From a bacterium (GTDB lineage: Bacteria > CG2-30-53-67): a DNA stretch of 41,789 nucleotides. The position numbers were made by a program, and so were the translations under genes. The number at the start of each line of letters is the position of its first letter. Within the stretch, counting starts at the first letter, position 1. This document shows positions 21,912 through 36,361 of this stretch, one piece after another. A model generated the notes under the pieces. The model was given only the letters and a program-made list of their open reading frames with translations. It was not told where the DNA came from and did no database searches. The stretch lies in assembly GCA_919901565.1 (NCBI GenBank), contig CAKKPE010000064.1, positions 1 to 41,789 of the forward strand. Direction: 5' to 3'.

Positions 21912-22832
21912 CTACAGTCCAAGGCCCATCCTTAGCTTTTCCAAAGACTCCTCGTACTTGTTTCTATCCATCTTCTGAATATTCATCAACTTCCATTGAA
22001 TAGCGGGCAGTTTATCTATCCCTTCTCTTCCAATGAGTTCCCATTCAGGTTGTCCTTGTTTCACAGAAAAGAGGAACGCCCTTTCATTATCCGTCAGTTC
22101 CTTCTTTAAAATTGTGATGAAGCTTTCTCTTGCTGTAATCAACTCATGGTACTGAACCGGATCCGCAGTCAACCCCACGAACTCCTTTTCAAAGATTTGT
22201 CGCATATCCTTCAGGGTAGGCTCAATCAACTCGTTCATGGGGCGGTCATGACTTGCAAGATATACGACAAAGGCCTTCCGTATCTCCTCTGTGATTCCCT
22301 CATTCTCCATCAGGATTTTGATATCAAAGATATCCCTGGGATGCTGACGATCCAATGCCGCACAAATCTTGCTCCCATACAAGTCGGCCATAGAGAGCGT
22401 TTGTATGGAAGTGGAAAGCTCAAAAAGTTCTTCGGCCTTTTCCGAAAGGTCACGCTCCTCACAAGGGAACACAGAACCGCGAACGACCTGGTTAGGCTCA
22501 ATCTTGATCTGAACATGCTGATTCCTAACAATCAATTTCACAGTCCGTTGCGATCCTTGCGTATTGGCTTCATGTACTCTTGAACCGGGAATCGAATCTC
22601 TGACGGCGGCGGCAATACGCTTGAGGGCATCTTCGATATTTTCCAGGGTTCTTTCACGAGATTCCAGAGGAAGGTACGTCAGATCTATGTCCACAGAGAG
22701 TCTTGGCATATTCCGCACAAAAAGATTTATTGCGCTTCCGCCTTTCAGTGCAAAACACCTTTCCGCTGCCACATGAGGAATAACACGCAGCATGAGTTCC
22801 GCCTGCTTGAAAAATGGATTGTTTTTGTTCAT
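21912..22832 (-). CDS. AbiEii/AbiGii-family nucleotidyltransferase toxin (system 1)
   Basis: 306-aa toxin of the AbiE type IV toxin-antitoxin and abortive-infection family. The nucleotidyltransferase signature KGGSAINLF (30-38) is followed by the metal-binding pair D48/D50 in SVDIDLTYL. A later conserved block (HPRDIFDIKIL, near residue 170) completes the active-site motifs. AbiEii proteins inhibit growth by transferring nucleotides to cellular RNA substrates such as tRNA. The start is 8 bp after the stop of the AbiEi gene, in the usual antitoxin-first order. All catalytic motifs are intact, unlike the second copy at 32800-33640. Confidence 0.93.
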   Translation of the reverse strand: MNKNNPFFKQAELMLRVIPHVAAERCFALKGGSAINLFVRNMPRLSVDIDLTYLPLESRERTLENIEDALKRIAAAVRDSIPGSRVHEANTQGSQRTVKLIVRNQHVQIKIEPNQVVRGSVFPCEERDLSEKAEELFELSTSIQTLSMADLYGSKICAALDRQHPRDIFDIKILMENEGITEEIRKAFVVYLASHDRPMNELIEPTLKDMRQIFEKEFVGLTADPVQYHELITARESFITILKKELTDNERAFLFSVKQGQPEWELIGREGIDKLPAIQWKLMNIQKMDRNKYEESLEKLRMGLGL

Positions 22833-22840
22833 GTCGTAGT

Positions 22841-23614
22841 TTATCTCGAGAGGTCCACCGGAACGGAGATCCTATATTTCGGATCCAAACGCCCCCCTGG
22901 CACGATCATGCGTTTACCTTTTCCAAAATCTATCTTTGACAAGTCCAGCTTTTTGACCCAGGCATGATTGCAAACATCAGCAAGATACATGAACAGGCGT
23001 TTCACTTTCACGGACCCACAGGCTTCCAGCAATGTCTGGACCAGTCCAGGGCGTAACGTTGTCAGCCCCTCCATAAGCAGTCTCGCTTCCTCAAAGGACT
23101 CCCCCCTCGGCACATAATAAAGGACCTCCATGATCGCTCTCTCCGGAGAGGACAATCGTATTGAATAGGCCCCCATTTCTTTGATGGTCATTCCAGGATT
23201 GCCTTGGGGAGGAAAGAGCTTGGTCGTTGTGTACCGGAGTTTCACGCCCCAGTCATGTTTCCTGAACCACACAGGAAGCTTCTCTCCTGGAGAACCGAAG
23301 AGTGATACCAACGCGCCTTTTCCAAGGGGCAGATAATGGGCGTATCCCTGAATCTGCAGCGCTGTTTTGCCGCCCCCATGAATGGAAAGCCCCAACTGTT
23401 TCTGAACCGCATAGAGGCCCCCGGTCCAGTCCACAGAATCCCCTTCACGGATGAACGCACCTCGGCCCAAACGATCAAGCCAGGCTGTCTTCCGGTAGGC
23501 ATCAACCAACTGGCGATAGACACCGCGTTCACTCAACCAGGAGTGAACAGCAACCGTTCCTTGAGGCCAAGCCCTGAGGATCTGGTTTAATTTACTCCTA
23601 TTTTGACTATTCAT
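22841..23614 (-). CDS. AbiEi-type antitoxin and transcriptional autoregulator (system 1)
   Basis: 257-aa protein with an N-terminal winged-helix DNA-binding region (about 5-60, including GTVAVHSWLSERGVYRQLVD). A C-terminal AbiEi-like domain (about 75-257) contains LSSPERAIMEVLYYV, the conserved SxPERAxxE block. AbiEi proteins repress their own operon and counteract AbiEii. The ATG at 23614 is preferred; a TTG three codons earlier (23623) is possible, and neither has a clear Shine-Dalgarno. One operator overlaps this start and another covers the promoter, matching the two-site autoregulation known for AbiE loci. Confidence 0.9.
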   Translation of the reverse strand: MNSQNRSKLNQILRAWPQGTVAVHSWLSERGVYRQLVDAYRKTAWLDRLGRGAFIREGDSVDWTGGLYAVQKQLGLSIHGGGKTALQIQGYAHYLPLGKGALVSLFGSPGEKLPVWFRKHDWGVKLRYTTTKLFPPQGNPGMTIKEMGAYSIRLSSPERAIMEVLYYVPRGESFEEARLLMEGLTTLRPGLVQTLLEACGSVKVKRLFMYLADVCNHAWVKKLDLSKIDFGKGKRMIVPGGRLDPKYRISVPVDLSR

Positions 23615-23627
23615 AATAGACAAAATA
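23599..23627. promoter_or_regulatory. AbiE system 1 operator, start-codon proximal
   Basis: 12-bp arms TATTTTGACTAT (23599-23610) and ATAGACAAAATA (23616-23627) around a 5-bp centre; 11 of 12 positions are complementary. It overlaps the start codon of abiEi. Confidence 0.75.
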
Positions 23628-23859: not shown

Positions 23860-26800
23860 TTATTGAAGAGCCGTGTTAAGGACAAATGATTTAATACACA
23901 AGCCTTCTTGGGATAGATCAGCAGCCTGGATGTCGTATTGCTTTTGTGCTTCTTCGAAACTAAGTTTTGGAGCCTTTCCTTTTCTATAATCTGTGGTATC
24001 CCACTTGTCGCAGTTAAACCATCCGACAAGGTACAAGCCATACTTACAATCGTTATCTTTTAAGTATCTGTCTGCCAGTTGGGTCTGCATTGCCTCAGGG
24101 AGATCTTGGTTCCAACATCCCTTCACTTCGATAATGACTTTTACAATATCATAGTCTTCTTGTTTGAACTCCTTCTTGATAGCATCTACGTGAATATCTG
24201 TTTTTTGGCCCCGTCGGATTTCAACTTCTCGATTCACAACAATTCCCCTTTTCTTGAGATCCTCGTCCAGATGTATCTTCACATAGTCAGAGAGTCTGTT
24301 CTCATCCTTAGGTATATATATCTTCTTTTTATTCTCATTGATCTCGTTCCATAGGTATATGGCGGCAGGTGTTGTACCTTGTAACTTTTGCTCTAAACGT
24401 CCTAAAGACTCGAGTACTATGTCAAGCAGTTGAATCCCGCTCTGGACGAAGCGTGTATGTTGGTTACTCGCGAACTTGAGAATTACTTCCGGATTTGGAG
24501 GTACCCATGTTAGCCTACGAGTGATATTCTGGGCCTCAAGTAACATCCATTTCAACCACTTCTTATCTGGAAATTCTCGTGAAATTATTTTTAATGCTTC
24601 ACATGCTTGATTAGTGCCTCGATCTCTGAGATAGTTCAGGATAGCATCTCGAAATCTTTTCACACTTTCGTTGCGACTAACACGGGAGAGTCTTTTTGGT
24701 TTTGGATCCTCAGCATATGGATATTGATAAACAAGCCGAATGTACAGATCAGCTATTTGGCTCTCCAAAAGTGTCTTTCCTATCTTTTCAGCGATTTCCT
24801 TAGAATCATGAGCAATCTCTGAAATCACTTCATATCCAAACTCCGGATCTTCCTGAATTGCCTGCCAAACAACTGCCCACCCAGCATCTTCTGCATGCAT
24901 CATCAGTGCTTTCGCCGCAGCCATTGCCCTTTGGCGCGCAATTTCAGTTGTGGGCAAAGGTGATTGAAGAAGAGATTCGACAAACTTTTGAGCCTCCTCT
25001 GCCTGATGATCAAGCAGATCACGAATCAGGCAATCCAGTGACTTAGGGTGCATATTTTCATCTTTTGCTTTTATCAAAAGTGCATTAGCCAGTTTGTCAT
25101 CCCAACAAGATTGGATCCTTTGTGTGATGAAAATGCACTTGTGATCCTTATTCTCTTTGTCAATTAAAGTAAGCAAAGTACTGATGATTTCATCAGGAGC
25201 ATTCTGATAGGTGATCTTCATTAGTTGATCACGAGACTTTTCATTGTCAGTGTGACTCGATTCAGGATAGGCAAGAATAATCGGGGCCCACCTCTTCCAG
25301 CCCTCGCTGGGAATCTGCTTCAAAAAATCAGGGGCCTCTCTTAGGAGTAGAATCAACCCCCTATACCCGGCACCTGCGGGGCGGTAAAAAGTATTCGTGC
25401 CCAACCACTTGTCCGCCTCAGGGTCATTACCAAGCATAAACTCTTTCGCCGCTTTGATGATCCGCTCTTTTGTTTCAAGGTTAGCATTCAACCATCCGGG
25501 AAGCGTTGTTAGGTCTGCTTCAAATTCATCACCATAATATAGACTATTGGGCTTAAGGGTCATTTCCATGTTCAATTGCCACCATGCATCAAGTTTGCCG
25601 GATTCAATCTTTCCCAAAAGGTTGGAAATTCTTTCTGAAGGTGAGGGTTTGAGTTGAGGGCGTTTCTGTCTGTGCTGCGTGAGAATCTTCTGTTGCTCAA
25701 GATATTCGTCCTTTATTCTTTGTGCCTCTGGTGAGTCTAAGCGAATTGGATCGAGCCAAGGTTTAAAGGAGTGGTAGAGTACCCGATTTGTTTGACAGGC
25801 CAAAACAATAGCGTCCGCTTGATTTGCCTCACTCCAGTCAAAAGCTCTCAGAATCAGTTCCGCCCACGCAGTCTGTGATTCCTGGGGCTCAGTGGATTGT
25901 ATACGGCCAATCATCCACAATACGTCCCGAGAAGTAACCAGAGGAGGTTCGGAATGGAGTAACCGAATAGAGTCCTTCTCTGGAGATGAAACAATGGGAA
26001 GTATTGCTTCGATAATCAGCCTGCGTTTCTTATCGTTCTTGTTCCATTCATCCAAGAATGTCTGCTCATCATTATGATCAAATATTGGATCATAATGTTT
26101 CAACCTTGAAAAGACCGCTTTTGCATATGCCTTCAAATCACCTGAGGATTCCAGGCATTCCCATCCTTTCATCATTATCTTGTCCATAAGCTTCCTGAAA
26201 CAATAGGGAAGCTCATGCCGACGTACCTGTTCCTCAACCCATATGAAAGCCCTGGGTAGATCTTCTGGTTTAAGATCGTCCGCAAGATCGAAAGCTACGA
26301 ATGAATAATACCGACCTATGAAGTTTTCCCTTTTGGGGGGCGTTATGGCATCGAAAAGTTCTTCCACTCCGATATACTTGGGCCACAGGGCTTGTAGAGC
26401 ATATCCTTTCAGCTGGTCCTCAGGGTCATCTCCCACACCACCTGCTGCAATCGGCTTCAATCTTGGTATTGCCTCTTCGTCCCCGATCCTGTCCACTGCA
26501 TAGATTGCCTCTTCACGTAATGACTGGTGTTGAGATACATCCAGAGCAACATTCATTAGCTCATCCACAAGCGTTTTTAGTCTGCATTCCCCCGCGATTT
26601 CTATAGCCGCTCTTCTTGCAAAAAAACTCTTCTTGTCGTCAGCAATGTAGGCTTGAATCTGCTCAGCCAGACCGGAATGATACAATTTCTTGTAATAGCG
26701 GTGCATTCCAAGATCCTGACCCAGCAATCTTTCCTCGTCAAAGAGTCTGAGCAGATTCTCGACCAATTGCACACGATCTTTTTTGTCAGCCATTACCACA

Positions 26801-28074
26801 TCACTGCGGATCAATACGTCGGAATTCCCTCTCATGGTTTCCCGGAATACACCGTGATCCATACTTGCCAACCAAGCCGCCGTCTCATGAAGCTGAGGGA
26901 CAAGTCTCCCGTCAGGATCATCAGGGTGTATGATCAGACTCATCATTTGAGAAAGCGTCATATTGTGCTGCACCAAATATCTAGCGGCGAGAAATTCAGC
27001 ATATGTCTGATGGGCCCAGCCCATACGGTTTGATCCACGGGAAGAAAACAATCCCGTATTCAGTGTTTCTCTTATCGCCTCGTCATTCACCTGGAATTGA
27101 GAGCCATTAATGCACTCATGCCCACCGCATAATTCTCGGATTGTTGTATCCTCATTTGGAAGGTCGCCCATGTCTACGCCCGTTGAGATAGCGTATCGAT
27201 TACAAAACACCGTGACAGCAGCAATACGAGACGCCACTGCCATACGTTGGTCGGGCGTATAATTACCGATCAAGCGTGCTTCTCGACGGCTTACACTCGT
27301 CTCTTCACACAATAGGCGGCAACCATCAAGATAAAGGGCTGATTTAGTCGATGGGAACTCGCCTTTTCGCTTGAAGGTATTCAAAAGAAAGTCCAGCGTA
27401 ACGGGTTTGATTGATAGAGGCACGACCTCCATTCTATCTACCTCATGAAGGAAGGCATCTGCATCCAAGCCATTGGTCTTTGCAGCTTCTAATACATCGA
27501 TACGGCGAAGGGGAACCAACTCAAATGCCTTGAAGTTATCTTTGCCCCAAAGGCGAGTCAATCCTTCTTCCAGAGAGGGAGGCCATTCAAAAGTACGGCA
27601 GGCTATGCGAAGATATAATCGCTCCGTGGGGTATTTCCTGAATTCTTCGGACAGCAAAGCAGTTAGGGTATCAATTCTTAGCAGACATTCGTCCAGACTG
27701 TCTAAGAAAAGGTGAAGTCGATGGTTGTTATTTACCCAGGAAAGAAAGGTTTGGTCTCCAAACAAAGTGCGTACCAATCTATCCTCGCTTCCAAATTGCC
27801 GAAGATCAAACCAAAGAACCTGATCTCTCCCCGACTTAATCTTTGCACCATAATTTTTTCTTTCTGCCGACATCGCATGGGTTTTGCCTATTCCAGGTTC
27901 ACCGAGCAACGCCAAGCAAGGAACTTCAGCTATAGATTCAAAAGTGACAACATCCGGATTGCCATATATTCCCCATTTGGAATCAGGATCGGATAAGAAT
28001 CCGCCATCCGACAGATTGATATTCCCAGTTCTTGGGCACCAGAATCGCTTCCAGTTGTAATTTTTATTAGGCAT
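23860..28074 (-). CDS. NACHT/STAND NTPase with HEAT-like repeats and C-terminal PD-(D/E)XK nuclease
   Basis: 1404-aa three-part protein, predicted to be a phage-sensing or stress-sensing switch with a nuclease effector. A short N-terminal segment precedes a STAND ATPase with Walker A GEPGIGKT (58-65) and the NACHT-type Walker B LFLDSLDE (122-129, with D125 and the D128-E129 pair). The long middle (about 430-1230) is helical and HEAT-like, for example LREEAIYAVDRIGDEEAIPRL; it is the expected ligand sensor. The C-terminal domain has D1293 in KTDIHVDA and E1316-V-K1318 in VIIEVKG, the D-(X)n-ExK pattern of restriction-like nucleases. It starts 44 bp after the metallophosphoesterase-NACHT gene on the same strand, so the two probably form an operon. 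The effector sits at the C-terminus, whereas Avs proteins carry it at the N-terminus. Confidence 0.85.
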   Translation of the reverse strand: MPNKNYNWKRFWCPRTGNINLSDGGFLSDPDSKWGIYGNPDVVTFESIAEVPCLALLGEPGIGKTHAMSAERKNYGAKIKSGRDQVLWFDLRQFGSEDRLVRTLFGDQTFLSWVNNNHRLHLFLDSLDECLLRIDTLTALLSEEFRKYPTERLYLRIACRTFEWPPSLEEGLTRLWGKDNFKAFELVPLRRIDVLEAAKTNGLDADAFLHEVDRMEVVPLSIKPVTLDFLLNTFKRKGEFPSTKSALYLDGCRLLCEETSVSRREARLIGNYTPDQRMAVASRIAAVTVFCNRYAISTGVDMGDLPNEDTTIRELCGGHECINGSQFQVNDEAIRETLNTGLFSSRGSNRMGWAHQTYAEFLAARYLVQHNMTLSQMMSLIIHPDDPDGRLVPQLHETAAWLASMDHGVFRETMRGNSDVLIRSDVVMADKKDRVQLVENLLRLFDEERLLGQDLGMHRYYKKLYHSGLAEQIQAYIADDKKSFFARRAAIEIAGECRLKTLVDELMNVALDVSQHQSLREEAIYAVDRIGDEEAIPRLKPIAAGGVGDDPEDQLKGYALQALWPKYIGVEELFDAITPPKRENFIGRYYSFVAFDLADDLKPEDLPRAFIWVEEQVRRHELPYCFRKLMDKIMMKGWECLESSGDLKAYAKAVFSRLKHYDPIFDHNDEQTFLDEWNKNDKKRRLIIEAILPIVSSPEKDSIRLLHSEPPLVTSRDVLWMIGRIQSTEPQESQTAWAELILRAFDWSEANQADAIVLACQTNRVLYHSFKPWLDPIRLDSPEAQRIKDEYLEQQKILTQHRQKRPQLKPSPSERISNLLGKIESGKLDAWWQLNMEMTLKPNSLYYGDEFEADLTTLPGWLNANLETKERIIKAAKEFMLGNDPEADKWLGTNTFYRPAGAGYRGLILLLREAPDFLKQIPSEGWKRWAPIILAYPESSHTDNEKSRDQLMKITYQNAPDEIISTLLTLIDKENKDHKCIFITQRIQSCWDDKLANALLIKAKDENMHPKSLDCLIRDLLDHQAEEAQKFVESLLQSPLPTTEIARQRAMAAAKALMMHAEDAGWAVVWQAIQEDPEFGYEVISEIAHDSKEIAEKIGKTLLESQIADLYIRLVYQYPYAEDPKPKRLSRVSRNESVKRFRDAILNYLRDRGTNQACEALKIISREFPDKKWLKWMLLEAQNITRRLTWVPPNPEVILKFASNQHTRFVQSGIQLLDIVLESLGRLEQKLQGTTPAAIYLWNEINENKKKIYIPKDENRLSDYVKIHLDEDLKKRGIVVNREVEIRRGQKTDIHVDAIKKEFKQEDYDIVKVIIEVKGCWNQDLPEAMQTQLADRYLKDNDCKYGLYLVGWFNCDKWDTTDYRKGKAPKLSFEEAQKQYDIQAADLSQEGLCIKSFVLNTALQ

Positions 28075-28118: not shown

Positions 28119-31100
28119 TTAAACATCCCTGGCACAACGAAAACCCACATCGACGCTCCTGAGATAGGGCATGCCCCTGTCGCGGTACGCGCAACGACAG
28201 AGGTAACCTAGATCGCTCCAAGAGCCGCCGCGCAGAACTTTATACTTCTTTTTCTCGTTATCATACCAGATCTCGGTCCATTCCCAGACATTCCCGGCCA
28301 TATCAAGGCAGCCGTAAGGGCTTTGGCCCTGGGGAAATTGGCCCACATCTGTGGTCCTTCCTGTCCCGCTCTCATAGGAATTACATTTTTTAGAATCAAA
28401 TGCATTCCCCCAGGGGTAGGTCTGCCCCTGGGTCCCACGGGCCGCCTTCTCCCACTCCTGCTCATCAGGAAGTCGCTTGCCGGCCCAGTCTGCATAGGCT
28501 TTGGCGCCGTACCAGGTAACATATGTAACCGGATGTCTATCGAACCGATCTTCAACTATGTAGCCTTTCCCGTGACTCTTGATCCTGCAATCGCTGCCTT
28601 CTAAATTAATCCATCTCTTCAGATCTTCGGATTCTGGCTTTACGGTCATCAAGAACTTGCAGTACTGCTCATTGGTGACCGGATATTTGTCCATATAAAA
28701 CGCAGGCAGGTCAATGACCCTCTGGGGCTTTTCGTCACTGCGTGCATCCGGGTCATCTTCCTTACTCCCGAATAGAAAGGTGCCTGCCGGAATTAGCACC
28801 ATCTCGGCGCCATCTACGGGGCTGGTGAAGATCTCCGGCGCCTCTTCTTTGGGTTTCTCAATCCCCGCGGTCGCATCTAAAGACTCCAGGGCAACCCACG
28901 ACGAGGATACCACTACGCTGTCTATGCCGGTTACCGCCTGTTTCAAGGCTTCAATCACCCTAGGTCCGCCCAGGGCCGTCAAGGCCCGAATGACATTGGA
29001 CCGGGTCTCCGAGGCAAGCTGATCGTCCTTCAGGGCTTCAATCAGAATATTGACGGGCTTGGTGATGGAATCCTTTACCGAATCCATGAGCAGGTCAATC
29101 TCTTTCTTGAAGATCTCTTTTTCTATCAGGGCCTTGGTGAAGTCTTCAATCATAGAAGGGTTATCCAGGGCCAGGCAGAGGCGGATGACCTCTTTCCACC
29201 ATTTATCTCCATACTTTGAGAGGAGGAGATCCATCTTTCCCAGGTTCCGGATTTGTTCGGCGGCCAGGTATTCCTGGAAGCTGAGATGGGTGAATCCGTA
29301 TTCGCTCTCGCTGTATCCCATGAAGATCCCGCTTCGGTCTCGGATGTTCAGCAGAAATTCCTCAGGATTGATCTCTGATTTTCCAATCTCTTCAAGTGGT
29401 CCGGCAATAATCTCCCGAATTTCCTCCATGGGCGCAGACCTTCGCTCATCTTTTTCATGAAGCCACAGGGCCAGGGGCTGGAGGACCTTTCTTGCCTGTC
29501 CTGCGGTGAGTAAAACCTCCAAACCTCTATCCTTGTCCCATCTTTCCAGGAGAACGTTTGTACACTCTTCGTAAAGATCCACCCTCCGCTCAGGCAGGCT
29601 CCCCCGGTCCCGCTGGACCAGTGCCATGATCTGCAGGAGCAAGGGGTTGACTGCGAGTTTCTTCAGGTCCTCAGAGTCTCGGATTTTCTCATAGAGGTTC
29701 AGGGCTTGTTCATGCCCCTTATTTCGCCAATGGTCCTCATCCTCGATGGGATGAAGCGCCGCCTCCACGGCCTCGAACCAGTGGACCAGGAATACTTCCA
29801 CCTCTGGCAGGGTAAAATTCCTGATGGCCAGTTCTATATGATTCGCCGTGAGCCTGCTCTCCTCCCGGTAGCCGGCAAAGCGGGATGTGACCACGAATCG
29901 TGTACGGGGGAATTGCCCCAAGGCCTTATCGATCCACTTGCAGGTCAGAATCCTTGCCCGCTCGTTGGCGACCTCGTCCAGCCCGTCGAGGAGGATGATG
30001 CCTTTGCCGCTCTCAAGAAGCTTTTTCAGGACACTCTCGGAAACCGAACGACCCTTTAATGAACAAGCCTCCATGATGAATGGGAGAAAGCCCTGCTTTT
30101 TAGGTTCTTTTAACTCTCGCAAAGGAGCAAAGAATGGGATGAGATCCTGCTCAAGTCCGAGCCTCTCCCTGCCTCTGTCCTGGATCAGCATGACAAGAAT
30201 ATATTTTAAAAGGGTGGTCTTGCCTGAGCCCGGATTGCCCAGGATGACCAGATCCTTGGTCTTGAGGCGCGCCGAGACCTCAAAGGCCTTTCTGAGGTCC
30301 ATGATAGGGAGTTGCTCCCTGTCTTGTCTCTCCTCCAGGATCTGCCTTTCTTGAACCGTCAGACCATGATCTCGGAGATGCATGCGGGCCTGCATCTGCA
30401 CATAGACCTTTTCCAGTTCAATAGGGACCCTCAAGGTAGTCTCGAAACCCTGTGTGGGGAGGTGGCGGTGTTCATTCAGCGCAGCCTGTTTGTAGTTCTC
30501 AAAGATACGCTCTTGCTTAATAGAGCGCTGGATATTAGCGACCGAAGTTTTGATTCCGGGCATGTCAAAGACGCACTGACCGTCCTTGCCTTTTTCACCA
30601 TCCAGGACCCATTGTCTATCTTTGTCAACGAACGTTCTGAAGTCCAGCCGGATCTTATGGATGGCCCAGTTCAGGGTAATGTATTGAAACCGGTTGGGGT
30701 AGGTGCTCTCTTCATAGGCGCAGCCGGCCTGAAAGCCATAGATCTCTCCAACCAGGTCCCTGGTGTATCCGCCTTCCGCATCATGGAGGTGTCCTGAAAG
30801 GGCGATACAGCCGTTCATATGTTTCCGGCAGATCCACCGGTCCTTGGGCCAGAGCCATTCCAGTGGGTGGTGGAAGAGATGGACCGTGAGATCATGGGCT
30901 CCATTTGTTCTCAGCTCCTCAACGGCCTTTACGAGCTGGTATTCGCCGATGGCAATCTTCTCCCTGTCATCGGAGACTCTACACATCCACGCCGAATTCA
31001 GGCCTACAAGGCCGATCCTCTTTTTGCACTCAGCCGTGTAAGAATAGATAAAAGGAACAAGCCGAGGGTTATTGCTTTTTAAATGGGGATAATGCTTCTC

Positions 31101-31496
31101 CACAAAAGCGAAATAGTCATCCATGCCTTTGAGGAGATCATTCCTGTAGTTTTCCAGTTCCTTGTTGAGGTCTTTCATCTCTTTGTAGGAAGGAATATCT
31201 CCAGGCCTGTATATTTTGCGGTAAACATCGTGATTGCCGGGGACAACAAAGAGCCTCTGGTCCGGAAGGGCAAGAGCTGCGAGGAGGTCATCAAAGAAAG
31301 GCTTGGCAAGGTCATACTCTTTCTTGATCCCAGTCTTGGCAATGTCGCCGGTAACGATCACGAGTTCGGGATTGAAGCCGGATTTGCGGTCTTCACGGAC
31401 GCGGGCGATCAACGGATTGAGCACAACGGAACGGTCGAAATCGTCTTCCGTGCTGACATGGAGATCGGAGATGTGAAGGATTTGCAGTTGGTCCAA
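28119..31496 (-). CDS. metallophosphoesterase - NACHT - HEAT - FGE/C-type-lectin-like protein
   Basis: 1125-aa multidomain protein. Residues 1-290 are a calcineurin-like metallophosphoesterase with all metal motifs: D11-x-H13, G50-D51, G87-N-H-D90, H209/H210 and G235-H-L-H238. The NACHT ATPase has Walker A GNPGSGKTT (420-428) and Walker B IILLDGLDE (500-508). Helical, HEAT-like repeats follow (about 750-880). Residues about 885-1125 form a formylglycine-generating-enzyme/SUMF1-like fold ending VGFRCA. Only C1100 and C1102 lie near the expected catalytic cysteines, so a sensing role is likelier than formylglycine synthesis. The start is TTG at 31496, with GAGGGGG directly upstream and the fold beginning at residue 5. 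It is the first gene of a probable two-gene operon flanked by AbiE modules. Confidence 0.88.
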   Translation of the reverse strand: MDQLQILHISDLHVSTEDDFDRSVVLNPLIARVREDRKSGFNPELVIVTGDIAKTGIKKEYDLAKPFFDDLLAALALPDQRLFVVPGNHDVYRKIYRPGDIPSYKEMKDLNKELENYRNDLLKGMDDYFAFVEKHYPHLKSNNPRLVPFIYSYTAECKKRIGLVGLNSAWMCRVSDDREKIAIGEYQLVKAVEELRTNGAHDLTVHLFHHPLEWLWPKDRWICRKHMNGCIALSGHLHDAEGGYTRDLVGEIYGFQAGCAYEESTYPNRFQYITLNWAIHKIRLDFRTFVDKDRQWVLDGEKGKDGQCVFDMPGIKTSVANIQRSIKQERIFENYKQAALNEHRHLPTQGFETTLRVPIELEKVYVQMQARMHLRDHGLTVQERQILEERQDREQLPIMDLRKAFEVSARLKTKDLVILGNPGSGKTTLLKYILVMLIQDRGRERLGLEQDLIPFFAPLRELKEPKKQGFLPFIMEACSLKGRSVSESVLKKLLESGKGIILLDGLDEVANERARILTCKWIDKALGQFPRTRFVVTSRFAGYREESRLTANHIELAIRNFTLPEVEVFLVHWFEAVEAALHPIEDEDHWRNKGHEQALNLYEKIRDSEDLKKLAVNPLLLQIMALVQRDRGSLPERRVDLYEECTNVLLERWDKDRGLEVLLTAGQARKVLQPLALWLHEKDERRSAPMEEIREIIAGPLEEIGKSEINPEEFLLNIRDRSGIFMGYSESEYGFTHLSFQEYLAAEQIRNLGKMDLLLSKYGDKWWKEVIRLCLALDNPSMIEDFTKALIEKEIFKKEIDLLMDSVKDSITKPVNILIEALKDDQLASETRSNVIRALTALGGPRVIEALKQAVTGIDSVVVSSSWVALESLDATAGIEKPKEEAPEIFTSPVDGAEMVLIPAGTFLFGSKEDDPDARSDEKPQRVIDLPAFYMDKYPVTNEQYCKFLMTVKPESEDLKRWINLEGSDCRIKSHGKGYIVEDRFDRHPVTYVTWYGAKAYADWAGKRLPDEQEWEKAARGTQGQTYPWGNAFDSKKCNSYESGTGRTTDVGQFPQGQSPYGCLDMAGNVWEWTEIWYDNEKKKYKVLRGGSWSDLGYLCRCAYRDRGMPYLRSVDVGFRCARDV

Positions 31497-31637
31497 GGCC
31501 CCCTCTTAAAAAACGGTGTCTGGTAGAATTCACAATGACACCCCATTCAAGGCGGTTGTTCCTTTGCGTTCTATCCCATGAATCTGTAGTCTCTGCAGGC
31601 GGCGATCCTGAATCATCAGCCCACGAAAGTAGGAGCA

Positions 31638-31796: not shown

Positions 31797-31826
31797 ACTG
31801 TATAACGTGTATACACGTTATACAGT
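31797..31826. promoter_or_regulatory. 30-bp perfect palindrome, AbiE system 2 operator O1
   Basis: Fifteen-base arms beginning ACTGTATAACGTGTA are exact reverse complements with no spacer. The central 16 bp AACGTGTATACACGTT are identical to those of the second palindrome at 31877-31908. Centres are 81 bp apart. An extra half-site ACGTTATA lies just to the left (about 31789-31796). Confidence 0.8.
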
Positions 31827-31859: not shown

Positions 31860-31888
31860 TTGACATGAAGATAACAAGGTGATAAACG
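31860..31888 (+). promoter_or_regulatory. candidate promoter of AbiE system 2
   Basis: A perfect TTGACA (31860-31865) is followed after 17 bp by a poor -10 (TAAACG, 31883-31888) that lies inside the second palindrome. Repressor bound there would cover the -10 region. Confidence 0.4.
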
Positions 31889-31908
31889 TGTATACACGTT
31901 TATCACCT
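31877..31908. promoter_or_regulatory. 32-bp perfect palindrome, AbiE system 2 operator O2
   Basis: Sixteen-base arms beginning AGGTGATAAACGTGTA are exact reverse complements. It shares the 16-bp core with O1 but has different flanks, and ends 20 bp before the start codon of the antitoxin gene. Confidence 0.82.
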
Positions 31909-31928: not shown

Positions 31929-32810
31929 ATGAATACAAAAACTCTTAAAAAGAGGTTCGAGACCCACTTTAAGATGCCGGTGGGACAGCACCAAATGCCC
32001 GCGCATGCTGAGCGCGTCATGGGGGAAACCCGGTACAAGAATGTCAGCAAGTTTATTAGTGTGCTACTAAAAGATGGTATCATCAAGCGATACCGGCTGA
32101 CTGCAAGAAACAACAGAAGTCGTATCTTGTACTGCTCCAGACCTCTTGATGAAATAGATCCCTATGAAAATGCCATGGCAATGTTTCCCGATGGCTATTT
32201 CTGTAATTACTCCTCTATCTATTACCACTCGCTTACTAATCAGGTTCCAAAAACACTTTACATATGTAACGAGACAATATCTGAGAGGCGGAGCAAAGTT
32301 CGAGATATAAGCGATAACGATCTGCGCAGAGCATTTATTAAGCCACGCCGACATACAAGCTGCGTGTTTGATATCACAGGCTATAGCATCGTTGTAGTGG
32401 ACCGAGAAAGAAACTCAGGGCACGGGGTTATTAAGACCCTTGCAACATCGCAGTTGTTGCCAAGGAAGTCACGCGTTACATGCATGGAGCGCGCACTGAT
32501 AGACGCTGTCGTGGCCCCGCACTACAACGGCGGCATTGCAAGCGTGTATGCACATTACAAAGCTGCGCAACGGAGGGCGAATGCCGCCAAGCTTATTGAA
32601 TTATACAAAAAACTGGATTTTGTGTACCCGTATTCTCAAGCCATCGGGTTCCTTCTAGAGAAGGCAAGAATGGCGAAGCATGCAGCTCTTGTTTACAGGG
32701 AGTTTCCACCGAAGCACATCTACTATATAGACCATAACGCAAAAACATCTTGGCGCTATGATAAAAAGTGGAAACTGCACTATCCAGAGGGACTTGTAGA
32801 TGAGGATTGA
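31929..32810 (+). CDS. AbiEi-like antitoxin and transcriptional autoregulator (system 2)
   Basis: 293-aa protein that fits the AbiEi role by position and pattern. An N-terminal winged-helix region (about 8-70, including NVSKFISVLLKDGIIKRYRLT) is expected to bind the two palindromes upstream. The C-terminal part has the conserved block SRVTCMERALIDAVV (about 177-191), equivalent to the S-PERAxxE block of AbiEi. Sequence similarity to the AbiEi of system 1 is low, so the two modules were probably acquired separately. The stop overlaps the toxin start by 11 bp (32800-32810). Base composition is lower in GC than the housekeeping genes. Confidence 0.82.
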   Translation: MNTKTLKKRFETHFKMPVGQHQMPAHAERVMGETRYKNVSKFISVLLKDGIIKRYRLTARNNRSRILYCSRPLDEIDPYENAMAMFPDGYFCNYSSIYYHSLTNQVPKTLYICNETISERRSKVRDISDNDLRRAFIKPRRHTSCVFDITGYSIVVVDRERNSGHGVIKTLATSQLLPRKSRVTCMERALIDAVVAPHYNGGIASVYAHYKAAQRRANAAKLIELYKKLDFVYPYSQAIGFLLEKARMAKHAALVYREFPPKHIYYIDHNAKTSWRYDKKWKLHYPEGLVDED

Positions 32811-33640
32811 AGAAGTAATCACTGAAACGATAATTGCAATATACCAAGATCGGACGGCTGCCGCCTATCTACGCCTGAAAGGTGGGAGTGCAATGCGGTT
32901 GTTCGATGATCTGAAATCCCGGCTGTCTACAGACGCAGACTTCTCAATTTCAAAAGGAATAGAGAACAAAAAAGATTTTTTCAGCGGCATTAAGTCCTCT
33001 ATCGCAAGAAGATTCCAGAAGGTGGGGTTCAATATTATAGACTTTAAATGTGAAAGGAGGCCCAGAAGCCGACGGGCCGATCTTCCGGTCTGGTGGGGCG
33101 GGTGGCAATGTGAATTCAAGCTTGTTGCGTTTGAGCATCGTGGGAAGTCCATAGAAACAATGAGAAGAAATGCTATGGTTCCGGAAGGGGCTGGTTCCCC
33201 AAAGATTCTATTAGAAATCAGTGAATACGAATACTGTGGCAAGAAGCGAGTTAAAACAATCCAACGAGTCAGGATAGCTGGCTACTCGCGGGAGCTGCTT
33301 GTGCTTGAGAAAATGCGGGCCATTTGTCAGCAGCATTCTGACTATAAGTACAGGCTCAGCAAAAACAGAGCGCGACTTTTATGACATATATGAACTAACC
33401 GCTAATACAGACGATAATTTTACGGATAGATGTCAGTCTGATATTGTGAAGGTCTTCCAGGCGAAGAGCGTTCCCTTATCAATCTTATCCGCTTTGTGGG
33501 ATAATACGTTTATAGATGAACAACGACGTGGATTCGATGAGGTAAGAGATACGGTGAGCGGGAATATACAGGAATTTGATGTCTATGTGGAGCACCTGCG
33601 ATTCCTTGCGAGGGAGATTTACCCTGCCGCGGCTAGATAA
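32800..33640 (+). pseudogene. AbiEii-like nucleotidyltransferase toxin (system 2), frameshifted at an A5 run
   Basis: The first frame (32800-33384) has the nucleotidyltransferase motifs LKGGSAMRLF and STDADFSI (DxD) but ends early with NRARLL. The next frame continues with TERDFYDIYELT, the second AbiEii motif block, and runs to 33640. Removing one A from the run at 33361-33365 joins the frames into a 279-aa protein of normal AbiEii length. The break is therefore a single-base insertion, a sequencing error or a slippage switch. As written, the toxin lacks its C-terminal third, while its antitoxin gene is intact. Confidence 0.8.
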
Positions 33641-33681: not shown

Positions 33682-33917
33682 CTACCGTTTGCCCAAAAAC
33701 TCCGTAAACGCCTTCTCCGCCACCGGAAGCGTTCCTCCCGAAAAATTCATCTGCCTTTTGCTGGATCATCTCAATGAGATCCACCGGGAGGTTGAAGGAC
33801 TTGAGCTTGAGCTCCACTCCCCTCTTCGGGCGCCCCACCGGTTTACTGGTTTCATCATCCCTCTGACGGGGCAGAGGTTGGAGAGCACTAAGGTTTTTTT
33901 GTTTTCTCCACGCTCAT
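33682..33917 (-). pseudogene. small ribbon-helix-helix-like gene coupled to priA, with two homopolymer frameshifts
   Basis: An ATG at 33917 overlaps the priA stop as ATGA. Reading on, a frameshift is needed at an A7 run (about 33894-33900) and another at a T5 run (33741-33745 on the plus strand, as AAAAA). With one base removed from each, the frame is open for 77 aa and ends VAEKAFTEFLGKR. The middle reads VGRPKRGVELKLKSFNLPV and then DLIEMIQQKADEF: a basic AT-hook-like GRPKRG followed by a beta strand and helices as in CopG/MetJ-type ribbon-helix-helix proteins. No uninterrupted frame explains this interval. It may be a real gene with sequence errors or a fresh pseudogene. Confidence 0.6.
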
Positions 33918-36361
33918 AAAAAATTGACCGGGTCCACGTCCACGATCAGGTCCACGCCGGAGAATCCGGGGGTTTGTGTCAGCCGGGTGACCCCTTGTTC
34001 CACGATCCGGTGGAGGCTGCGGACGGATTTCCCTTTGACGAGGATCTGGTAGCGCTTCTTTCCTCTGAGTGTGGAAAGAGGCGCCCTGGCCGGGCCGAGG
34101 ACCTCGACCCCGTGCTGGCGCAGGGGCTGGTCCCTGAGGACCTTCCCGAGGTGTTCCGCGGCCTCCTTGACCTTCTGAAGGGAATTGGCCGATAGGACCA
34201 GGTTGATCAGGCGGCAATAGGGGGGATAGTTCAGGGCCTTCCGGAACAGGATCTCCTGGTCAAAGAATGACTGGTAGTCATGGTTCCTGGCCGCCTGGAT
34301 CGAGTAGTGCTCCGGGGTATAGCTCTGGAGGTAGACCTTTCCTTTTGTCGCTCCTCTTCCGGACCGGCCCGCGACCTGGGTCAGGAGCTGAAAGGTCCTC
34401 TCCCCGGACCTGAAGTCCGGAAGGTGCAGGGAGGTGTCCGTGTTCAGTACGCCGACAATGGAGATCCCGGGGAGGTGGTGCCCTTTGGCCACCATCTGGG
34501 TCCCGATCAGGATGTCCCCCTGGCCGGACCGGAACTGGTCCAGGATCTTTTGCGCAGCGCCTTTCTTTCTGGTGGTGTCCCGGTCAAGGCGGAGGAGCGA
34601 TGACCCTTGGAAGATCTTCTCCACCTCCTGCTCGATCCGCTCGGTGCCCGATCCCTTGAGCTCCAATGATCCGGTCTTGCATTCGGGGCAGACGGTTGTC
34701 AGTGTCGTGGTGAATCCGCAGTGGTGGCAGCAGACCTCATGCTCCTTCATGTGGTAGGTCAGGCTCACGCTGCAGTTGGGGCAGCGGTGGACATAGCCGC
34801 ATGTTGCGCACAGAAGAAAGGGGGCATAGCCCCTGCGGTTCAGGAACAGGAGGACCTGCTCCTTGCGTTCGAGGCCCTGTTTGACCGCCTGGGCCAGTTT
34901 CGGGGAGAGAAACCCCGCGTCTCTTTGTTCCTTCATGTCGATGAGGCAAACCTCGGGCATGGGGCGGTCCTCGATGCGCTTTTCCATGGTGAGCATCCGG
35001 TACTTTCCTGCCTGCGCATGAAAGAAACTCTCGACCGAGGGGGTCGCACTCCCGAGGATCACGGTTGCGCCGGACATCTTCCCCCGGACCACGGCCAGAT
35101 CCCGGGCATGGTATCTGGGCACTTCTTCCTGCTTGTAGGTTGCATCGTGTTCTTCATCCACAACGATAAGACCGAGGTGCGTGAAGGGCGCAAAGATCGC
35201 CGAACGGGCGCCCACGGCGATGGAGACCTCCCCTTTGCTGATCCGGGTCCACTGGTCATAGCGCTCTCCGTCCGAGAGCCCGCTGTGCAGGACGGCGATC
35301 CCTTTGCCGAACCGGGAGCGGAATATGCGGATCAATTGCGGGGTCAGGGCGATCTCCGGGACCATGACGATGGCCTCCTTTTGCTGAGCGCGGGCGGTTT
35401 CAATGGCGCGAAGATAGACCTCGGTCTTTCCGCTGCCGGTCACACCATAGAGCAGAAAGGTCTCAAAACGCCCCTGTTTCAGGGAGGCCGCGACCGGCTC
35501 CACGGCGGCTTCCTGTTCCGGGGAGAGGTTCGGAGGATGCTCCATGACGATGGTCTCTCCTGGGAAAGGGTCGCGGAAGACGTCCCGGCTTTCCCGGACC
35601 AGCAGGTTTTTCTCAACCAGGCCCCGGACCGCGCCGGCCCCGGCGCCGGTCTGTTCACGAATTTCCGCGGCGCTCCATGGGTCCGGCCTCCCCTGCAGGG
35701 CCTGGAGGATCCGGGCCTGTGAAGGAGAGCGTTTCTGAATGGCGGCAAGGTTTTGTTCCAGCCGGTCCGTGTCTGAAGTGAGCCTGTAGACCGCCTCGGA
35801 CTTGTTCCGGACCGGTTTGCGGACCTCCTCTCTGATGACCAGGAGGCCTTCCTTGCAATATCTGTCCAGATGAGCCTTTATGTCCCGCTTGCCGGTCTTT
35901 GTTTCGAGCTGTTTAATGGTCAGCTCCCGGTCCTGGAGGACGTTTCGGACCTTGTGAAACAGGGGGTTTGCCTGGGCGCAGGCCTTGCCTTGTTCGGTGA
36001 GGGAGACGTGGTATGTGCGGACCTCATCAATGCCCGCGGGAAGCACGGCCCGGATCACCGAACCCCAGGGGGCAAAGTAGTATTCGGATATCCACCGGGT
36101 CAGTTTGAGCATCTGCGCGGGCAAAAGGGGTTCGGCATCCAGCAGGCGGATCAGGGGTTTGAGCTGCGGATAATCGCTCTGCTCCCTTTTTTCCACGAGA
36201 TACCCGGTCACGGTCCGGCGGCCCAGGGAGACCCTCACCCGGATTCCCGGGAGAGCGAGATTCCTGAACTCTTCAGGGATGGTGTAATGGAAGATCCTGT
36301 CCACACCGGGCACCACGACCTCTGCAATGCCCTGTTCATTAACCTTTGCCTGTCGCGTCAT
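33914..36361 (-). CDS. priA: primosomal protein N' (replication restart helicase)
   Basis: 815-aa superfamily 2 DNA helicase that reloads the replisome at stalled forks. An N-terminal DNA-binding domain (about 1-190) precedes the helicase core, with Walker A GVTGSGKTE (near 306-314) and the DEEH box VDEEHDATYKQEE (near 400). Eight zinc-binding cysteines lie between the helicase lobes (CATCG, CPNC, CCHHCG, CPEC; about 520-570). Motifs IGTQMVAKGH and QVAGRSGRG are intact and the length is normal. It marks the right border of the defence island. Confidence 0.97.
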   Translation of the reverse strand: MTRQAKVNEQGIAEVVVPGVDRIFHYTIPEEFRNLALPGIRVRVSLGRRTVTGYLVEKREQSDYPQLKPLIRLLDAEPLLPAQMLKLTRWISEYYFAPWGSVIRAVLPAGIDEVRTYHVSLTEQGKACAQANPLFHKVRNVLQDRELTIKQLETKTGKRDIKAHLDRYCKEGLLVIREEVRKPVRNKSEAVYRLTSDTDRLEQNLAAIQKRSPSQARILQALQGRPDPWSAAEIREQTGAGAGAVRGLVEKNLLVRESRDVFRDPFPGETIVMEHPPNLSPEQEAAVEPVAASLKQGRFETFLLYGVTGSGKTEVYLRAIETARAQQKEAIVMVPEIALTPQLIRIFRSRFGKGIAVLHSGLSDGERYDQWTRISKGEVSIAVGARSAIFAPFTHLGLIVVDEEHDATYKQEEVPRYHARDLAVVRGKMSGATVILGSATPSVESFFHAQAGKYRMLTMEKRIEDRPMPEVCLIDMKEQRDAGFLSPKLAQAVKQGLERKEQVLLFLNRRGYAPFLLCATCGYVHRCPNCSVSLTYHMKEHEVCCHHCGFTTTLTTVCPECKTGSLELKGSGTERIEQEVEKIFQGSSLLRLDRDTTRKKGAAQKILDQFRSGQGDILIGTQMVAKGHHLPGISIVGVLNTDTSLHLPDFRSGERTFQLLTQVAGRSGRGATKGKVYLQSYTPEHYSIQAARNHDYQSFFDQEILFRKALNYPPYCRLINLVLSANSLQKVKEAAEHLGKVLRDQPLRQHGVEVLGPARAPLSTLRGKKRYQILVKGKSVRSLHRIVEQGVTRLTQTPGFSGVDLIVDVDPVNFL

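Follow-up and report, generated by a model that had tools for sequence, protein, structure and literature searches.

A probable NLR-like intracellular defence receptor joining a metallophosphoesterase and a NACHT NTPase to an FGE domain with a retroelement-type footprint

In the window, the 41,789-nucleotide stretch of bacterial DNA analysed here, one gene encodes a protein that joins an N-terminal calcineurin-like metallophosphoesterase (MPE) to a NACHT NTPase and a C-terminal FGE-sulfatase domain of C-type-lectin fold. We consider this protein likely to be an NLR-like intracellular defence receptor, a bacterial counterpart to the immune receptors of animals, in which sensing by the FGE domain would pass through NACHT to hydrolysis by the MPE. 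We also propose, tentatively and as one possibility, that MPE-NACHT-FGE proteins form an adaptive-like receptor class that is diversified by diversity-generating retroelements (DGRs) and takes interchangeable effectors (MPE or a DUF4062 NADase), with the window copy a germline-fixed variant kept after loss of its retroelement.

The reading frame is uninterrupted across all 1125 residues. Pfam finds effector, STAND NTPase and C-terminal FGE in that order within the one protein: Metallophos (PF00149, E 5e-11) at residues 5-238, NACHT at 416-576 and FGE-sulfatase, the strongest match, at 897-1123. The first-pass annotation had described an MPE with all metal-ligand motifs intact at the N-terminus of a NACHT protein; Pfam and motif reading confirm this, and add the C-terminal FGE-sulfatase domain that it overlooked. 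The NACHT motifs are GNPGSGKT (Walker A) and IILLDGLDE (Walker B). The features of the gene are as follows.

28119..31496, minus strand: MPE-NACHT-HEAT-like-FGE gene, 1125 amino acids, TTG start
About 31499-31506, minus strand: ribosome-binding site AGAGGGGG, preceding the TTG start
30597..31496, minus strand: MPE, residues 1-300, predicted effector (Pfam PF00149, DS8 and DS9 models, invariant ligands, AlphaFold2)
29769..30251, minus strand: NACHT NTPase, residues 416-576 (Pfam PF05729, E 8e-15)
28902..29057, minus strand: HEAT-like stretch, residues 814-865 (PF13646, E 1.5e-4; 22.4 bits, under the Pfam cut-off of 27.7)
28128..28808, minus strand: FGE-sulfatase (C-type-lectin-fold) domain, predicted sensor (PF03781, E 1e-61)
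28149..28217, minus strand: variable-repeat-like segment, residues 1094-1116, with a DGR-type footprint (gap-free alignment to foreign template repeats)

The MPE carries the motifs SDLH (D11, H13), GD (G50, D51), GNHD (87-90), HHP (209-211) and GHLH (235-238). When the window domain was aligned with nine relatives, each just 21-29% identical to it, H8, D11, H13, G50, D51, G87, N88, H89 and D90 in the first half and N167, H209, H210, G235, H236 and H238 in the second were invariant across the ten sequences. Because the ligands hold among relatives this distant, the motif set is far beyond chance. The DS-8 model (NF053861) matches window residues 8-283 over its positions 1-275 (E 3.7e-38). DS-8, the nearest relative to have been characterised and identified in E. 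coli with DefensePredictor, is a single-gene anti-phage system made of a metallophosphatase and a NACHT domain, and mutating either the metallophosphatase catalytic residues or NACHT abolishes its defence (2026; PMC13092281). By analogy with this relative, the window MPE is very probably catalytic and the effector; the earlier expectation of catalysis stands as a prediction.

Structural comparison bears on what the MPE might hydrolyse. An AlphaFold2 model of the domain (pLDDT 80.6, pTM 0.87) was searched against experimental structures, the comparison that the first-pass annotation had proposed. Closest were Rv0805, a class III cyclic-nucleotide phosphodiesterase (E about 3e-12), and purple acid phosphatases (about 4e-12). 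Of the families named beforehand, the cyclic-nucleotide phosphodiesterases thus rank high; Mre11 and UshA stand lower, after GpdQ, with Mre11 at E about 1e-7 and TM-scores of only 0.4-0.5. The modelled fold points to hydrolysis of a small phosphodiester or phosphoester rather than to nuclease activity, and does not decide between the substrates named beforehand (cyclic nucleotide, NAD-type molecule or nucleic acid). The best PDB match of all, 9a6c (YydB), is an integrative rather than an experimental model and was set aside for assigning function; a literature search on YydB function found no paper. Among viral proteins, the structure search returned generic phosphoesterases only. Searching viral contigs with the whole window protein gave no match, and searching them (IMG/VR) with the MPE alignment gave 15 loci, which fed the structure prediction. 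In these contigs the MPE family is carried by nSTAND4, nSTAND5, nSTAND6 and NACHT-FGE proteins; its presence on several STAND types marks it as a portable effector.

The C-terminal FGE domain, likely the sensor, is the single FGE-sulfatase match in the window genome. Among its PDB relatives is Treponema variable protein 1 (2y3c); the PDB entry nearest to it in sequence is SUMF2, which we take to be a paralogue without FGE activity. Aligned to the bacterial FGE 5nxl, the window protein has Asp at the first position of what we assume to be the active-site Cys pair, and this position falls within the variable segment. An AlphaFold2 model of the domain built from three sequences reached a pLDDT of 36 and was discarded.

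Comparison with two relatives revealed that the effector varies on a conserved NTPase-FGE chassis. L005, from a Brocadiaceae genome (G008), is 65% identical to the window protein in NACHT and 61% in FGE; it lacks an MPE match and has DUF4062 at the N-terminus instead. L049, conversely, is 63% identical in the MPE, 25.5% in NACHT and 34% in FGE. These contrasts indicate that effector and receptor halves move independently, as an effector-receptor division predicts. DUF4062 is reported to be a TIR-like NADase active in phage defence, and is the executioner in Swarozyc (PMC13174449). The swap suggests that an MPE and a TIR-like NADase can each replace the other as executioner, and fewer substrates then come into question for the MPE.

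A search of 392 genomes of the phylum to which G008 belongs with the DS-8 model yielded four DS-8 proteins above the threshold, together with some twenty further places where the MPE matched clearly. The MPE-NACHT-FGE order recurs in L049, L050, L051, L052, L054, L059/L096, L062, L063/L097, L064, L011 and L083 (L059 lies within the longer stretch L096, and L063 within L097; L064 is a longer stretch around L007 in which the template is visible). A DGR-type reverse transcriptase adjoins L050, L052, L054, L059, L063 and L064; the genome that holds L064 belongs to the same family as that of the window. Template/variable repeat pairs are present at seven loci (L049, L050, L052, L054, L064, L096 and L097), and their templates show the classic layout, with Asn runs (AAC/AAT) between RGGSW and GF. 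Mismatches fall at template adenines, 23% of template bases, in 104 of 126 cases (p about 4e-45), a count in which the L064 pair belongs to a neighbouring STAND-FGE target rather than the MPE-bearing one, and L054, L096 and L097 give two pairs each, one of each from a second target. A variable repeat is also present in the L064 target that bears the MPE, displaced by one base from the template.

Several loci had irregularities of their own. Variable repeats of two DGR targets lie out of frame with respect to their templates (L050, about 2000-2135; L064, 8484-8600). For the template repeat of L049 (5561-5631), no reverse transcriptase was found in the 25 kb around it, and several lie elsewhere in the genome; perhaps it is served in trans. 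In two close homologues a single in-frame stop interrupts the gene, L049 (1988-5281; TAG between MPE and NACHT) and L051 (1475-4912; TGA inside the MPE), which may reflect decay, sequencing error or recoding. More broadly, several homologues contain in-frame stops or frameshifts, possibly through assembly errors or decay. In L058 (2-5023), an open frame encoding 1674 residues or more has the reverse order, NACHT-like at 240-636 and DS-8-type MPE at 1333-1610.

Adenine-specific divergence is also found in the C-type-lectin-fold domain of the window protein, with two of three controls flat and the third weak. The window tip, VLRGGSWSDLGYLCRCAYRDRGMPYLRSVDVGFRCARDV, aligns without gaps to template repeats from other genomes. 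Measured against the L049 template, which comes from another genome than the window's, it differs at 19 of 31 adenine sites, compared with 15 of 80 sites that are not adenine (p 2.7e-5). In the 11 AAY codons, first and second bases differ in 14 of 22 cases and third bases in one of 11. The tip of L005 carries the same adenine-type footprint (p 1e-8). Two control genes, non-STAND FGE genes from related genomes (L008 and L009), differ at 9/11 and 6/11 third bases and are free of adenine bias; L010, the third control, lies in between (p 0.01; 4/11 third bases). In the window genome (G000; 97% complete, 160 contigs), we found neither an RVT_1 match for a reverse transcriptase nor a template repeat or second copy of the variable segment. 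An active DGR was accordingly rejected, and the assembly gives no sign of ongoing diversification. Judging from these alignments, we infer that the window segment descends from a DGR-diversified repeat; the genome would then have lost a former retroelement. The window protein is apparently an orphaned DGR-type receptor.

The gene sits in a small island flanked by ordinary chromosomal genes, with these neighbours.

21912-23623, minus strand: AbiEii/AbiEi pair
23860-28074, minus strand: EruA-like NACHT protein (NF058535, E 2e-84, far below its cut-off)
31929-33384, plus strand: second AbiEi/AbiEii pair
33914-36361, minus strand: PriA

Two different AbiEi/AbiEii-type pairs thus bracket the two NACHT genes, one on each side. 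The EruA-like gene follows the MPE gene, beginning 44 bp downstream, and a single transcript may cover both. A conserved two-gene system was considered and rejected: in 15 genomes that are related or carry MPE-NACHT-FGE, no homologue of the EruA-like gene was found, and for this reason we do not count it as part of the system. By eye, a C-terminal segment of its product, TDIHVDAIKKEFKQEDYDIVKVIIEVKGCW, resembles a PD-(D/E)XK nuclease core. The palindrome AACGTGTATACACGTT occurs in two perfect copies (31804-31819 and 31885-31900) in the interval separating the MPE gene from the divergent AbiEi/AbiEii pair, with none expected by chance; it is probably an AbiEi operator.

We envisage the following course of events. 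The FGE/C-type-lectin domain would bind a molecule of the invader, upon which the NACHT NTPase, like that of other STAND proteins, would oligomerise and so gather and activate the N-terminal MPE. The activated MPE would hydrolyse a molecule that contains a phosphodiester, most likely a small one of nucleotide type, and thereby stop phage growth, probably with sacrifice of the cell in an abortive outcome. The requirement for MPE and NACHT residues is carried over to this scheme from DS-8, a relative of the window protein. Sequence comparison further shows that the sensor belongs to a lineage with a tip diversified by DGRs, and that the effector module is exchanged between chassis; in the window copy, apparently without a retroelement, sensor specificity would be fixed.

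Other readings of the domains account for parts of these data. The MPE could be a Mre11/SbcD-type nuclease that cuts DNA or RNA on NACHT oligomerisation, as Avs nuclease effectors do. The PADLOC 'Effector, Endonuclease' model matches residues 6-301 (E 1.1e-28) and SbcD gives a weak match (E 0.011), to which the structural match to Mre11 can be added; Rv0805 and purple acid phosphatases nonetheless outscore Mre11, and we recognised no Mre11 capping domain in the window MPE, so that we regard a nuclease as rather unlikely. That the FGE domain is itself an enzyme, of formylglycine or sulfoxide-synthase type, and the protein a modification system rather than a receptor, appears highly improbable. 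Its Pfam and NCBIfam names and most of its PDB relatives point to enzymes, whereas its nearest sequence match is the presumably inactive SUMF2, the first Cys of the assumed active-site pair is replaced by Asp, and the segment holding that Asp is hypermutated in related loci. A regulatory role, in which the MPE lowers a second messenger and dampens signalling by another defence system without killing, is suggested by the reported alignment of DS-8 with the cGAMP phosphodiesterase SMPDL3A (PMC13092281) and by the possibly co-transcribed EruA-like gene. We think it quite unlikely, since DS-8 defends as a single gene that requires MPE activity (PMC13092281), the EruA-like pairing is not conserved, and the replacement of the MPE in L005 by DUF4062, an executioner in Swarozyc, fits an executioner role (PMC13174449).

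The footprint, for its part, could be ordinary loop divergence in a gene that was never a DGR target. Variable loops are common at the same place in FGE proteins, the L010 control is weakly biased, and the window genome has neither reverse transcriptase nor template repeat. Set against this, third bases are kept and first and second bases scrambled, the reverse of ordinary drift, and the footprint recurs in L005 and is missing from the non-STAND FGE genes L008 and L009. We therefore hold loop divergence to be unlikely and retain descent from a DGR-diversified repeat as our reading. So understood, this kind of gene links a sensor type hypermutated in bacteria to effectors of a family for which DS-8 has demonstrated a role against phage. 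Adaptive-like immunity through retroelement-diversified receptors is an open proposal; it becomes testable with one gene, and the effector of that gene should give a measurable read-out.

The window protein belongs to an already known kind of receptor, the parts of which are known separately. Like DS-8, it has a same-family N-terminal metallophosphatase and NACHT in one chain; the phosphatase of DS-9 is related to that of DS-8 (PMC13092281). It is nonetheless distinct from DS-8, scoring 130.9 bits against an equivalog cut-off of 790 (NF053861) where true members reach 859-882, and ending in an FGE domain, whereas the model spans 994 residues and FGE gives no match in true members such as L045. 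A 2021 eLife survey describes STAND-FGS proteins with calcineurin among their N-terminal effectors and predicts a DGR association, with the retroelements often nearby (PMC8195603). The window protein shares their order of calcineurin-type effector, STAND NTPase and C-terminal FGE, and differs in having no DGR in its own genome; in the survey sections compared, we found no template and variable repeats for calcineurin-bearing members. The first-pass annotation had set an MPE effector apart from those that dominate known STAND defence proteins; that such an effector is new among them is not supported, given DS-8 (PMC13092281) and the listing of calcineurin on STAND-FGE proteins in the survey (PMC8195603). 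In Thiohalocapsa, DGR-diversified NACHT/CLec proteins were described as antigen sensors (PNAS 2024; PMC10907252). They resemble the window protein in combining NACHT with a C-type-lectin sensor bearing a variable repeat, and one target has a phosphodiesterase domain with NACHT; that target, however, also carries vWA and is part of a MoxR ternary system, whereas a single gene encodes the MPE-NACHT-FGE protein of the window. Swarozyc (PMC13174449) relates to this protein through DUF4062, which L005 carries as its effector on the same kind of NACHT-FGE chassis and in place of which the window protein carries the MPE. As far as the compared literature shows, three things are new here: template and variable repeats documented explicitly for members that carry an MPE, the exchange of effectors, and the orphan footprint.
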